Source: an uncultured Bacteroidales bacterium (lineage in GTDB: Bacteria; Bacteroidota; Bacteroidia; Bacteroidales; Paludibacteraceae). Taken from it: a DNA stretch of 64,000 bases. Position 1 is the first letter of the stretch. Each line of letters opens with the position of its first letter. A model generated the notes under the pieces. That model was not told the DNA's origin, ran no database searches, and worked only from the letters and a program-made list of their open reading frames with translations. The position numbers were made by a program, and so were the translations under genes. Positions 38,331 to 50,530 of this stretch are shown here, one piece after another. The stretch spans positions 1 to 64,000 of the forward strand of contig ONJT01000001.1 of the NCBI GenBank assembly GCA_900318245.1, given 5' to 3'.

Positions 38331-38354
38331 AGTTTTGTCAGGTGAAAAAAAAAC

Positions 38355-38371
38355 TATTTTTGGTATTTTTG
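38355..38371 (+). promoter_or_regulatory. promoter boxes before structured RNA A
   Basis: Two copies of TATTTTTG (38355-38362 and 38364-38371), each an exact TAnnTTTG match. TTTTG at 38333-38337 is a possible -33 element. Confidence 0.5.
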
Positions 38372-38372
38372 C

Positions 38373-38494
38373 CCTTTGAATGATTTAACTCACAGAGTTG
38401 TGAGCTTGGGTGGTATTAACTATCCGAAAGCTTGTTTTCGAGGAGTTATTATCGCTTAAGCACACAGGGAATCTCATTCCAAATCATTTAAAGG
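38373..38494 (+). ncRNA. structured RNA A (new family candidate)
   Basis: This 122-base segment is closed by CCTTTGAATGATTT (38373-38386) pairing with AAATCATTTAAAGG (38481-38494), 13 of 14. Inside are hairpin 1, CTCAC/GTGAG (38389-38404). A long arm 2 runs about 38405-38460 with CTT/AAG, TAACT/AGTTA and an apical CGAAA/TTTCG (38425-38440). Hairpin 3 is GGAAT-CTC-ATTCC (38468-38480). A T-rich tract follows. The same layout occurs in three segments near 44.4-45.1 kb, and arm 2 shares GAAAGCTTGTTTTCG with RNA C. No supported open frame crosses it. Function unknown. Confidence 0.65.
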
Positions 38495-38604
38495 TTATTT
38501 TTTATATATTTTTCTTTTTAATAACGTTTTCGCCCTGTCGTTTACCTGTCAATTACCTTCCATTTACGGGGTAATCCTAGACTTTAGTCCTTATCATCGC
38601 GGGA

Positions 38605-44374: not shown

Positions 44375-44417
44375 TCTGCCCCGTAAAGATCTTTGAATTA
44401 TTGTAACCAAAAAAGTC

Positions 44418-44544
44418 GGAATCAACAGTTGCCGTTAGCAACTCCGGCATGATTACTCCTCATTCTCCTCGTGAGCAAGTCTCCCGGATAGACTGATGAC
44501 TAATCCTGCCCAGCCGATGCGATACTTCGCTGCTTGTTGATTCC
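44418..44544 (-). ncRNA. structured RNA B (same architecture as A, C, D)
   Basis: Minus-strand 127-base segment closed by a perfect 10-bp stem, GGAATCAACA with TGTTGATTCC (plus-strand ends 44418-44427 and 44535-44544). Inside are hairpin GCGA/TCGC (44519-44530), a long arm with GGC/GCC, GATTA/TAATC (44451-44455 with 44501-44505) and AGTCT/AGACT (44478-44494), and hairpin AGTTGC/GCAACT (44427-44443). It ends ACTTTTTTGGTTAC, like RNA D. No open frame is supported. Confidence 0.6.
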
Positions 44545-44673
44545 TCTCAAAAAACTGTACAAAAAAACGTTGCATTGCATTTCACTTCAAAAAAGTTTGC
44601 CCACGCATTCTTTTACTACCGCAGTGATTATGCTTAAAAAATTTTTTGGCATTTTTTGATCTTTTTTTTGTAA

Positions 44674-44887
44674 AGCAGCAGTTTCCGCTATGTCATTGAA
44701 TATTTTTTGGCTTTTTTGTCATTAGATAGCAATGACATCTCGGATGTGAGGATTTATTAGTAGCGGATTATTGAAAGCTTGTTTTCGGATAAGACGATAG
44801 TAATAAATACTTGAAGGTACTGCAAGTACTATTGCTATCTAATGCTTTTTTTATAGTTTTTTTGATTATCTAAATAAAACTGCTGCT
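44674..44887 (+). ncRNA. outer, interrupted copy of a D-like RNA
   Basis: AGCAGCAGTTT (44674-44684) pairs perfectly with AAACTGCTGCT (44877-44887) and the flanks match those of RNA D almost base for base: TTTTTTGGCATTTTTTGATC upstream and GCTGCCTTTTTTGGTTACCT downstream. The interior is replaced by RNA C with its own T-rich flanks. It looks like an RNA gene split by insertion of a related one. Confidence 0.5.
44720..44844 (+). ncRNA. structured RNA C
   Basis: This 125-base segment has a perfect 14-bp closing stem CATTAGATAGCAAT/ATTGCTATCTAATG. Hairpin 1 is ACATC-TCG-GATGT (44735-44747). Arm 2 begins ATTTATTA (44752-44759) with TAATAAAT (44801-44808) and carries an apical GAAA/TTTC around GCTTGT (44773-44786). 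Hairpin 3 is GTACT-GCA-AGTAC (44817-44829). A run of seven T follows. TATTTTTTG at 44701-44709 is ten bases upstream of the stem, the same distance as in RNA A. Confidence 0.65.
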
Positions 44888-44987
44888 GCCTTTTTTGGTT
44901 ACCTAGAAATAAAACGTATTGTAGCTACAAAAAGAAGTTCACACTATGCCTTGAATTTTTTTGGCATTTTTTGATCTTTTTTTGGAA

Positions 44988-45110
44988 AGCAGTCGAGAGG
45001 TTCGTGAAAGGAACCTGTCGAAATGGACGATAATTGGTTAGCAATGGAAGCTCGCTTACGCTTGGAACCAAGTATCGTACATTAGGGTTGATTTATCAAC
45101 CTGGACTGCT
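44988..45110 (+). ncRNA. structured RNA D
   Basis: This 123-base segment is closed by AGCAGTC/GACTGCT (44988-44994 with 45104-45110). Hairpin 1 is AGGTTC/GAACCT with an outer CGA/TCG (44994-45020). Arm 2 has ACGATA/TATCGT (45027-45078) and TTGGTT/AACCAA (45034-45071) with an AAGC/GCTT tip. Hairpin 3 is GGTTGAT-TT-ATCAACC (45086-45101). The tail GCCTTTTTTTTGGTTAC is U-rich. No open frame is supported. Confidence 0.65.
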
Positions 45111-45155
45111 GCCTTTTTTTGGTTACCTAAAATAGAATAAAACTAAAACGAATAT

Positions 45156-48731: not shown

Positions 48732-49658
48732 ATGATAAGTGTTGTAATACCGCTATATAACAAAGAGAAGAGCATCACGATGACGCTCGAATCGGTATTG
48801 GCGCAAACCTATACGGATTATGAGGTGGTAGTTGTGGACGATGGAAGCACAGATTCTTCAGCAGAGGTGGTGCGATCAATGATGGCGAAATCGAATAAGA
48901 TACGACTTATTCAGAAGCCCAATGGAGGAGTTTGCTCCGCACGGAACCGTGGAATCATAGAGGCGAAAGGTTACTATATCGCGCTGTTGGATGGTGATGA
49001 TATTTGGGATAAAGATTTTCTGATGGAACAAGTGCTACTTATCCATGATTTCCCGGAGGCTGTGATGTGGGGTATTAACTTTGCAGAAACAAGAAAGGGG
49101 AAAATCGTACGTAAAGTTGCAACGGCATTGCCGGATGGATATAGAGGATATGTGGAGCATTATTTTGAGATGCCGAAACGTGTATCTGATTTGTTTTGCT
49201 CGAGCAGTGTAGTGATTCGGAGAGATGTGTTCGATAAGGTAGGGATGTTTGATGAGCGGATCAAATATGCGGAAGATAGCGATATGTGGTTCCGGATTAT
49301 CGCAACGGAGAAGGTGGCATTCTACGACAAGTATATGGTCTTTTACCAATGGGATGCTGAGAATAGAGCGATGCAGAGGAAGAGAGATTTGAGGTATTTT
49401 TTACCGTACTATGTGGGTAAATATCGCAATCCGATGTTTAAAAAGAATGCAGCGTTTTATAGATGGATCAATCGTTGGGCTGCAAATATATTTCGGAGAT
49501 ATTATTTCGACGGAGATAGTAACGACCGGAAAGAAGCGAAAGTTGCTATGAAGGATATCGATTATGCAATTGTTCCCTTTAAGTACCGATTGCTCTTTAA
49601 GTGGCCGTATGGTATAGCGAAAGTGTTGGATAAGTTAGATAAGATGTATCACAAATGA
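48732..49658 (+). CDS. GT2 family glycosyltransferase (paralogue 1)
   Basis: The 308-residue protein starts MISVVIPLYNKEKSITMTLE, with VVVDDGSTDSS and ALLDGDDIWDKDF (DxD). Its first ~115 bases differ from those of the next gene at only a few positions, whereas the later parts diverge, which points to recent conversion or duplication of the 5' end. It probably adds one sugar of the repeat unit. Confidence 0.9.
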   Translation: MISVVIPLYNKEKSITMTLESVLAQTYTDYEVVVVDDGSTDSSAEVVRSMMAKSNKIRLIQKPNGGVCSARNRGIIEAKGYYIALLDGDDIWDKDFLMEQVLLIHDFPEAVMWGINFAETRKGKIVRKVATALPDGYRGYVEHYFEMPKRVSDLFCSSSVVIRRDVFDKVGMFDERIKYAEDSDMWFRIIATEKVAFYDKYMVFYQWDAENRAMQRKRDLRYFLPYYVGKYRNPMFKKNAAFYRWINRWAANIFRRYYFDGDSNDRKEAKVAMKDIDYAIVPFKYRLLFKWPYGIAKVLDKLDKMYHK

Positions 49659-50530
49659 TAAGTGTTGTAATACCGCTATATAACAAAGAGAAGAGCATCA
49701 CGACGACGCTCGAATCGGTATTGGCGCAAACCTATACGGATTATGAGGTGGTAGTTGTGGATGATGGATCGACGGACAATAGCGCGAATATAGTCCGCAA
49801 ATTGGTAAATGAGAAGATCCGGCTCATTAGTCAACCCAATGGAGGTGTTTCTGCTGCGCGAAATACGGGTATTATGTCAGCCAATGGAGAGTATGTGGCA
49901 TTCTTGGACGGAGATGATATTTGGGATAAGGATTTTTTGAAGGAGTTGGTTGCGCTGATTGAAGAATATCCAGGTAGGAGTATATATGGATTAGGAATAG
50001 CTTGCATACGAGGAAATCAGATTCCAAAGTGCAAAGAGGAAGAATACTACAGAGGCGATATTCATTGGGACTGGACAGTAATTGTTCCATCCGGAAGTAG
50101 TGCATGTGTAAGAAGACAAGATGCAATCGATGTCGGGATGTTCGATACGAGAATGACACATGGGGAAGATATGGATATGTGGTGGAGATTGGTGCTGAAG
50201 AACGGTGGTGCATGTTACTCAAAGTCTTATGCATATTATCGGTTAGATGCAGAGAATCGGGCAATGCATAGGGTGGTACCACTCGAGAAACATATTCCAT
50301 ACTATATGGATAAATATGCTGAGGCTCGTGCAGCTAATGCGCAGTTCCGCAAGTATTGCGATGAGAATATGGTATTTCGGTTATACCCCTATTTGTTCGA
50401 TAAAAGATATAAGAATGAAGCCCGTAAGATTGCACGTAAATTGGATTATAGTCAAATGAAATGGTCTATGCACTTTAGAATGTGCTTCCCCCGATTGTAT
50501 AACTTCTTTCAGAAACACAAATTATTATGA
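49655..50530 (+). CDS. GT2 family glycosyltransferase (paralogue 2)
   Basis: The 291-residue protein has the same N-terminus as the upstream paralogue (MISVVIPLYNKEKSITTTLE), VDDGSTDNS and AFLDGDDIWDKDF. The remainder is clearly different in sequence, so acceptor or donor specificity may differ. Overlaps of 4 bases occur at both ends. Confidence 0.9.
   Translation: MISVVIPLYNKEKSITTTLESVLAQTYTDYEVVVVDDGSTDNSANIVRKLVNEKIRLISQPNGGVSAARNTGIMSANGEYVAFLDGDDIWDKDFLKELVALIEEYPGRSIYGLGIACIRGNQIPKCKEEEYYRGDIHWDWTVIVPSGSSACVRRQDAIDVGMFDTRMTHGEDMDMWWRLVLKNGGACYSKSYAYYRLDAENRAMHRVVPLEKHIPYYMDKYAEARAANAQFRKYCDENMVFRLYPYLFDKRYKNEARKIARKLDYSQMKWSMHFRMCFPRLYNFFQKHKLL

Follow-up and report, generated by a model that had tools for sequence, protein, structure and literature searches.

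Closest described repeats and RNA families

The closest described systems are the ERIC/IRU/RU-1 repeats and other bacterial repeats resembling miniature inverted-repeat transposable elements (MITEs), which in the available excerpts are small, intergenic and dispersed, are found in operons and are predicted to give highly base-paired transcripts (PMC2229807, PMC3049150, PMC2267715). According to the same excerpts, these families were found and modelled by sequence, using hidden Markov models (HMMs), and most of them form stem-loops (PMC2229807, PMC3049150, PMC2267715); ERIC, a 127-bp enterobacterial repeat, is predicted to form a single long stem-loop (PMC2267715), and most of the MITE-like repeats carry terminal inverted repeats (PMC2229807). 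A stretch of 64,000 nucleotides from an uncultured Bacteroidales bacterium of the Paludibacteraceae (assembly GCA_900318245.1, contig ONJT01000001.1, positions 1 to 64,000; here called the window) was found to contain four structured segments, at 38373, 44414, 44720 and 44988. With moderate confidence, these segments are read as copies of a mobile element about 170 bp long, dispersed and non-autonomous, which carries a small RNA gene, is recognised by its RNA shape and is of the ERIC/BOX/MITE kind.

The family was found to share its length (about 100-200 bp), its dispersal and its intergenic location with the MITE-like repeats ERIC, RUP, BOX, Correia/NEMIS and YPAL. Such repeats are under 200 bp with many intergenic copies, and here about 39 copies of about 170 bp were found, with 45 of 51 copies lying between the frames of at least 80 amino acids (aa) called by a simple frame caller and with no clear orientation preference relative to their neighbours. 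A conserved sequence with terminal inverted repeats was not found: the closing stem is inverted, with a sequence that varies freely from one subfamily to another, and the family therefore departs from the usual MITE-like kind. In contrast to the ERIC and MITE kind, it contains a four-way junction, conservation mainly at the tip and in one hairpin pair, and direct-repeat-like T-rich flanks.

The repetitive extragenic palindromic sequences (REPs) have a conserved sequence in a short single hairpin and are associated with a Y1 transposase. The family resembles the REPs and the bacterial interspersed mosaic elements (BIMEs) in being intergenic and folded, with close neighbours often forming inverted pairs, whereas no Y1 transposase like the REP-associated tyrosine transposase (RAYT) of those systems was found in the window's own genome, which is 92% complete. 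The FopS small RNA is similar in length to the elements described here and likewise belongs to a multi-copy non-coding Bacteroidales family, considered at the RNA level. In the available part of its description, FopS of Bacteroides contains a single-stranded 5′ seed followed by one terminator hairpin and is said to be deposited in Rfam (PMC11697453). A FopS-like small RNA was rejected, the elements here containing a four-way junction and having no Rfam match. The available excerpt on HMP2_4205 describes a 132-bp Bacteroidetes candidate that lies near TPR genes in human microbiomes and is itself predicted to act as a terminator (PMC8040213); the palindromic HMP2 candidate RNAs agree with the elements here in length, phylum and structure on both strands and, compared by that partial description only, could be relatives of them.

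Fold, copies and covariation of the family

Unconstrained RNA folding gave the same order of parts in all four segments, namely a closing stem, a short hairpin, a long interrupted arm, a second short hairpin and the return of the closing stem, and a four-way junction was called in 4/4 by a topology script. This is the shared plan that the first-pass annotation had read by eye, at coordinates that proved right to within a few bases. For each segment, 0/200 dinucleotide shuffles matched the stability of the native fold (fold z values in Table 1).

Two partial relatives on the contig of the window came up when the own genome was searched by blastn with the second segment as query, and reading nearby gave more. 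A descriptor scan of the contig gave 513 hits and was too noisy alone, and a first MAFFT alignment of seven segments contained only 11 pairs, model-based alignments being used instead. The covariance model R1, built from four copies including the one at 44720, found copies over many contigs of the own genome and matches in 26/61 genus genomes, the own genome included. The model R2 was built from 48 R1 matches, with its structure taken from summed pairing probabilities; the E-values of both models are rough, owing to a short calibration.

Three of the window segments were matched well by R2 in a search over 188 kb (Table 1). The copy at 38373 was one of the 48 R2 training sequences (as L035), and that at 44720 belonged to the four-sequence seed of R1, which then chose the R2 sequences, so that the copy at 44414 was the sole one of the three without a part in either model. 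The segment at 44988-45110 gave no R2 match at E <= 1 in the 188-kb search and, when 901 bases were searched with the filters off, ranked next among the matches that do not overlap. Its tip, flanks and fold agree with the family, and it is therefore counted as a divergent member, with less certainty than the other three. The proposal that the segments form one structured family was thus borne out well for three of them and marginally for the fourth.

In the own genome, R2 gave 43 matches at E <= 0.1, seven of them antisense shadows of others. About 39 distinct places were compiled from several R2 searches, some of them weak (E above 1e-4) and the copy at 44988 included; taken alone, the own-genome search lacked those at 44414, 44988 and 102736. 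The covariance model and genome search that had been suggested as a check gave R2 matches at E <= 1e-4 in 26 of 40 genus genomes (Paludibacteraceae, many from ruminants, the own genome included), with 0 to 34 matches per genome, antisense shadows perhaps among them. A pattern search added 39 loci (38 genomic and one viral), and of the 26 rescanned with R2, 20 were matched; the other six (L188, L189, L192, L211, L212 and L224) were taken as chance. The named records with R2-confirmed hits were metagenome-assembled genomes of Paludibacteraceae, Bacteroidales or Bacteroidia, many from ruminants and one from a pig, and several of them are the same DNA as genus-genome loci (for example, L114 of G018 is L210).

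The family had been left without a recognised identity, and the comparisons agree with this. No match was found in the window against Rfam (4227 families, gathering threshold), seven loci with distant relatives gave tRNAs only, and six loci searched at E <= 2 gave two matches, both outside the elements. No description of the family was recognised in the open-licence PMC literature, which is weak evidence of novelty. Likewise, no known DNA element with conserved terminal repeats was recognised in these segments.

The pairing was found to be kept while the stem sequences change. In 48 sequences with 55 pairs, 83.1% of the cells were paired and changes on both sides were found in 55/55 pairs, with a covariation score of 0.644 against 0.213 (sd 0.009) in shuffles and 0.11-0.16 in slid pairings. 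The alignments A8, in which one antisense row remains, and A9 (127 rows, reduced to 114 copies by removal of three antisense duplicates and ten identical rows) were both fitted to the model structure, so that the pair counts lean towards structure; the slid and shuffled controls and the alignment-free folding described below are set against this. Among the 114 distinct copies, none of the closing-stem columns exceeded 0.86 bits, whereas conservation was found in the apical tip (AAR, YUUR, YUU), at a few bases next to it and at the C-G pair that closes the 5′ hairpin. Sequence likeness was found at the level of subfamilies (340 copy pairs with core identity of at least 72%). The family is real and large, and its copies seem to be held together mainly by structure and little by sequence. 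The first-pass annotation had set covariation against a DNA repeat; the covariation was strong, and the contrast itself was not supported, since both seem true: the copies are dispersed with T-rich direct-repeat-like flanks, and their sense strand is under selection for folding.

Between closely related copies, single steps to G-U or to a mismatch predominated, with double changes building up as copies diverge, as expected of ordinary compensatory evolution. Concerted copying of stem arms was not supported, the changes looking stepwise.

The 114 copies contained 328 G-U and 51 A-C cells, distributed as 50/18 in the closing stem, 19/4 in the 5′ hairpin, 38/2 in the 3′ hairpin, 181/18 in the arm and 40/9 in the tip. 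When the 3′ letters of each pair were shuffled, 828 G-U and 505 A-C cells were expected from composition, so that 40% of the expected G-U cells and 10% of the expected A-C cells were retained. The sense-strand bias is real and is smaller than the raw ratio, because composition alone favours G-U, and it is weakest in the closing stem. In alignment-free folding of the same 114 copies, which were picked by the structure model, the sense strand was more stable than the antisense strand in 113/114, and the junction was present in the unconstrained folds of 89/114 sense strands, 70 antisense strands and 12/2280 shuffles.

Dispersal, nesting and flanking boxes

Among copies with 80 bases on both sides, 242 pairs were at least 72% identical in the core and had far flanks unrelated to each other; in these pairs the flank identity fell to background (0.25-0.3) beyond about -25 and +24. 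The similarity is confined to this range around the core, and the unit is therefore about 170 bp. Near-identical copies were found at dispersed places of the own genome (C10:5390 and C7:16459, 94% identical), and copies in G305 and the own genome were 98% identical.

Sites were found to be occupied in some genomes and free in close relatives. The own genome contains a head-to-head pair in a ribosomal-protein operon, between infA-like and rpmJ-like frames (named by eye from their translations), whereas the same spacer in G035 contains about 30 bases. The rpoA-rplQ site contains a head-to-head pair in the own genome (G000) and in G035, and the 28 others of 30 loci read were without the pair, including G026, whose sequence there matches that of G035 at 98.5% over 1421 bp. 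As a separate observation, the rpoA-rplQ spacer of G026 (L156:1423-1491) matched, at 98.5% identity, another part of this operon region in G035 (L157:3115-3183), as if intergenic spacers were exchanged in the clade.

The copies were found beside many kinds of genes, one pair lying in a ribosomal-protein operon, and a local regulator of the polysaccharide operon was therefore rejected; the supposed array beside that operon is a set of three among the genome's copies.

The copy at 44720 was found to be enclosed by the remnant of another copy, with an outer stem formed by AGCAGCAGTTT and AAACTGCTGCT. The outer T-rich flanks of the interrupted copy resemble those of the copy at 44988, 44639-44673 and 44954-44988 being 91% identical. 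Among the 112 copies with flanks long enough for the flank-similarity and box counts, outer stems of this kind were found in 7, against 1.3 in mismatched flanks (score 10). Of these seven, L111 has the look of inverted promoters and not of nesting; this weak member (L111:1458-1668) lies inside a 23-bp inverted repeat with promoter-like boxes (TACCTTTGCA) and may represent a different type of element. In the own genome, neighbouring copies separated by less than 500 nt formed four divergent, three tandem and no convergent pairs and, among the matches listed for other genomes, eight divergent, two tandem and no convergent pairs; one convergent neighbour was found 547 nt apart across rplQ in G035.

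Most of the copies were found to contain T-rich boxes of about 17-20 nt on both sides. The two boxes within one copy were more alike than boxes across copies (mean local score 9.04 vs 7.84, sd 0.14, n=112), and flanks were also common to paralogs. The motif TAnnTTTG is the Bacteroidota -7 box. Upstream, at -19 to -14, it was perfect in 18/112 copies against 2.5 (sd 1.5) in shuffles and present with one mismatch in 59/112 against 28 (sd 4.2). The downstream box contained a weaker excess (perfect 9 vs 2.5; one mismatch 54 vs 41, the latter within the shuffled range). The copies share ancestry, and these excesses are therefore not independent events. The position of the -7-like box would place the transcription start close to the closing-stem base. 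In L075 and L105, from two different genomes, the junctions are intact, and one and the same unrelated sequence (GTGCCCACTTGGCGG) stands directly upstream in place of the T-rich box.

Relatives were also found beyond the genus. An order-wide scan, in which 11 candidates were scored per genome, so that its counts are lower bounds, gave R2 matches in at least 5 of 295 genomes, of which two, counting the own genome, belong to the genus and at least three lie outside it (G127, G271 and G306). In G127 and G306 the copy begins directly at the 3′ end of tRNA-Ser(CGA), and G271 contains at least seven copies with other flanks. A tRNA-Ser survey covered 45 genomes of the order, of which 31 had a match; among the 30 loci read, 16 contained tRNA-Ser(CGA), and an R2 match followed the tRNA in two of them (L233, E 3e-8; L238, E 5e-4). 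In L235 the same shape was seen by eye without an R2 match, and the remaining 13 contained, by eye, a plain hairpin or nothing obvious downstream. In L233 a second junction was found about 500 bp on, with a duplicated 3′ end of the tRNA ahead of it. These tRNA-linked relatives, present in some Bacteroidales families other than the Paludibacteraceae, are a possible origin of the family. A tandem array of units of about 54 bp (GGTCGCGAAGAATGAGCAATCCCTCTCC...) was also found between two junction copies in L233:1590-2216 (G098).

Table 1. Junction copies and associated boxes in the window, with fold z against dinucleotide shuffles and R2 scores
Feature	Coordinates	Strand	Basis
E4, four-way-junction copy	38373..38496	+	fold z -6.4 (38370-38497 folded); R2 87.1 bits, E 2.5e-17; in R2 training set
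E4 T-rich upstream box, TATTTTTG (-7-box-like) at -18 and -9	38351..38372	+	reading, position scan
E4 T-rich downstream box	38497..38516	+	read from sequence
E1, GC-richer copy, head-to-head with E2	44414..44546	-	fold z -4.1 (44410-44548 minus folded); R2 38.9 bits, E 4.6e-6; outside the models
Older interrupted copy, left part: T-rich box and closing-stem 5′ side (AGCAGCAGTTT)	44639..44684	+	
E2, copy nested in older copy	44720..44846	+	fold z -5.4 (44718-44848 folded); R2 96.0 bits, E 2.2e-19; R1 seed
Older copy, right part: closing-stem 3′ side and TTTTTTGGTTACCTA box	44880..44911	+	
E3 T-rich upstream box (TTTTTTGGCATTTTTTGATC...)	44954..44987	+	pattern twice in window, mean 0.01 expected
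E3, divergent copy	44988..45110	+	fold z -5.5 (44984-45115 folded); R2 16.4 bits, E 0.0042
E3 T-rich downstream box (TTTTTTTGGTTACCTA)	45111..45130	+	read from sequence

Two neighbouring glycosyltransferase-like genes of the window were 98% identical over their first 114 bases (48732-48845 and 49655-49768), the mark of a recent 5′-end duplication or gene conversion. A divergent copy on another contig (L003:1216-1340, minus strand) lies antisense within the 3′ part of a 423-aa frame and may be translated there.

Proposed mechanism and competing explanations

The element is read as a T-rich upstream box, -7-like in some copies, followed by a strand of about 127 nt forming the four-way junction and by a T-rich downstream box that could act as a terminator tract. 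It would be transcribed from its own upstream box, and the folded RNA, or less likely a folded single DNA strand, would be recognised by a putative trans-acting enzyme. Recognition of the shape would let selection keep the shape while the stem sequence drifts stepwise, and new copies would land in intergenic T-rich places. ERIC and BOX have been described as adding stable RNA structure to operon transcripts, and an operon-resident copy of the present element would do the same.

Several observations weigh against this interpretation. The sense strand contains 24% G and 15% C, so that a part of the strand bias is composition, which also aids sense stability, and a folded DNA strand could tolerate G-T as well. 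The -33 box was usually missing, the full promoter pattern being found in 4/114 upstream stretches, and T-rich flanks inherited from a common ancestor can pass for a -7 box. The empty sites seen were not clean insertions with target duplication. The whole rpoA-rplQ spacer and the first rplQ codons differ between G035 and G026, and homologous replacement could therefore have moved the pair at that site. The rpoA-rplQ pairs of G000 and G035 have the same orientation and very different sequence, as do the single copies of G002 and G003 in the 3′ spacer of a dusB-like gene; such copies could reflect repeated insertion or an old resident drifting fast. Six of the 51 copies lay inside a frame according to the simple frame caller, and the weak copy L003:1216-1340 (minus; contig C38, about 102732-102856) lies across the 423-aa frame. 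No mobilising enzyme emerged from the searches, which covered Y1 transposases: a Y1 transposase (RAYT/IS200 type) was not found at E <= 0.001 in the own genome, and the matches present in 16/40 genus genomes were, by eye, unrelated to copy number.

A RAYT/Y1 partner was rejected for want of any association with copy number by eye. A phage or plasmid origin was rejected on blastn searches of a phage collection with two queries and of a plasmid collection with one query, neither of which gave a match; the sole IMG/VR pattern hit lay inside a phage coding region and was not recognised by R2.

A rather unlikely alternative is an element acting at the DNA level, in which a recombinase acts on a folded single strand of DNA, as at attC sites or IS200/IS605 ends, and the RNA is irrelevant. 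Integron attC sites are recognised by structure with little sequence, and by analogy the predominance of structure over sequence here might have the same cause; the direct-repeat-like flanks, the 3-nt hairpin loops and the inner closing-stem pairs, for which no G-U was listed (columns 9-13 of the 48-sequence alignment), would also fit. The excess of G-U over A-C in the arm and 3′ hairpin, far above composition, fits RNA better, G-T in DNA being possible. The own genome lacks a detected Y1 transposase, integron integrases not having been searched, and the genes between neighbouring copies look by eye like housekeeping genes and not like cassettes.

It is unlikely that the copies are paralogous trans-acting regulatory RNAs with their own promoter and terminator, multiplied by use in the host and mobile as a by-product. 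The sense-strand fold, the apical tip (AAR-YUUR-YUU), which a protein or RNA might contact, the -7-like box upstream with a T-tract downstream, and the presence of R2 matches in 26 of the 40 genus genomes all suit such RNAs, whereas the swing from 0 to 34 matches per genome within one genus, the near-identical copies at unrelated places and the copy pair within the ribosomal-protein operon do not. FopS, a known Bacteroides family of that kind, is also built differently in the available part of its description (PMC11697453).

A bolder proposal, which must be considered improbable, is that a shape-defined junction-RNA gene, kin to tRNA-Ser(CGA) trailers, copies itself via RNA into T-rich sites as a bacterial counterpart of the short interspersed elements (SINEs). 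Slightly less probable is a SINE-like retroposon proper, with its RNA reverse-transcribed in trans and inserted at T-rich sites through a U-rich tail to give direct repeats: the promoter-like and U-rich ends of the unit, the flank pairs matched within copies, the relatives directly after tRNA-Ser(CGA) and the recent dispersal would suit it, whereas the flanks common to paralogs must, for that reason, be at least partly carried along and not taken from the target, no empty site with a single repeat copy was shown among the sites compared, and nothing shows RNA-mediated movement of this type, reverse transcriptases not having been searched for.

The reading of the segments as copies of a mobile element recognised by its RNA shape bears on how such families are found. 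Small bacterial mobile repeats are usually known by sequence, and sequence-based repeat searches would struggle to detect families in which mainly the shape is kept. With up to 34 model matches per genome in the sample, a presence in a ribosomal-protein operon and a pairing under strong, sense-biased selection, this family raises the question of whether the RNA or the folded DNA strand is the form that moves or acts, and similar hidden families may exist in other uncultured lineages.
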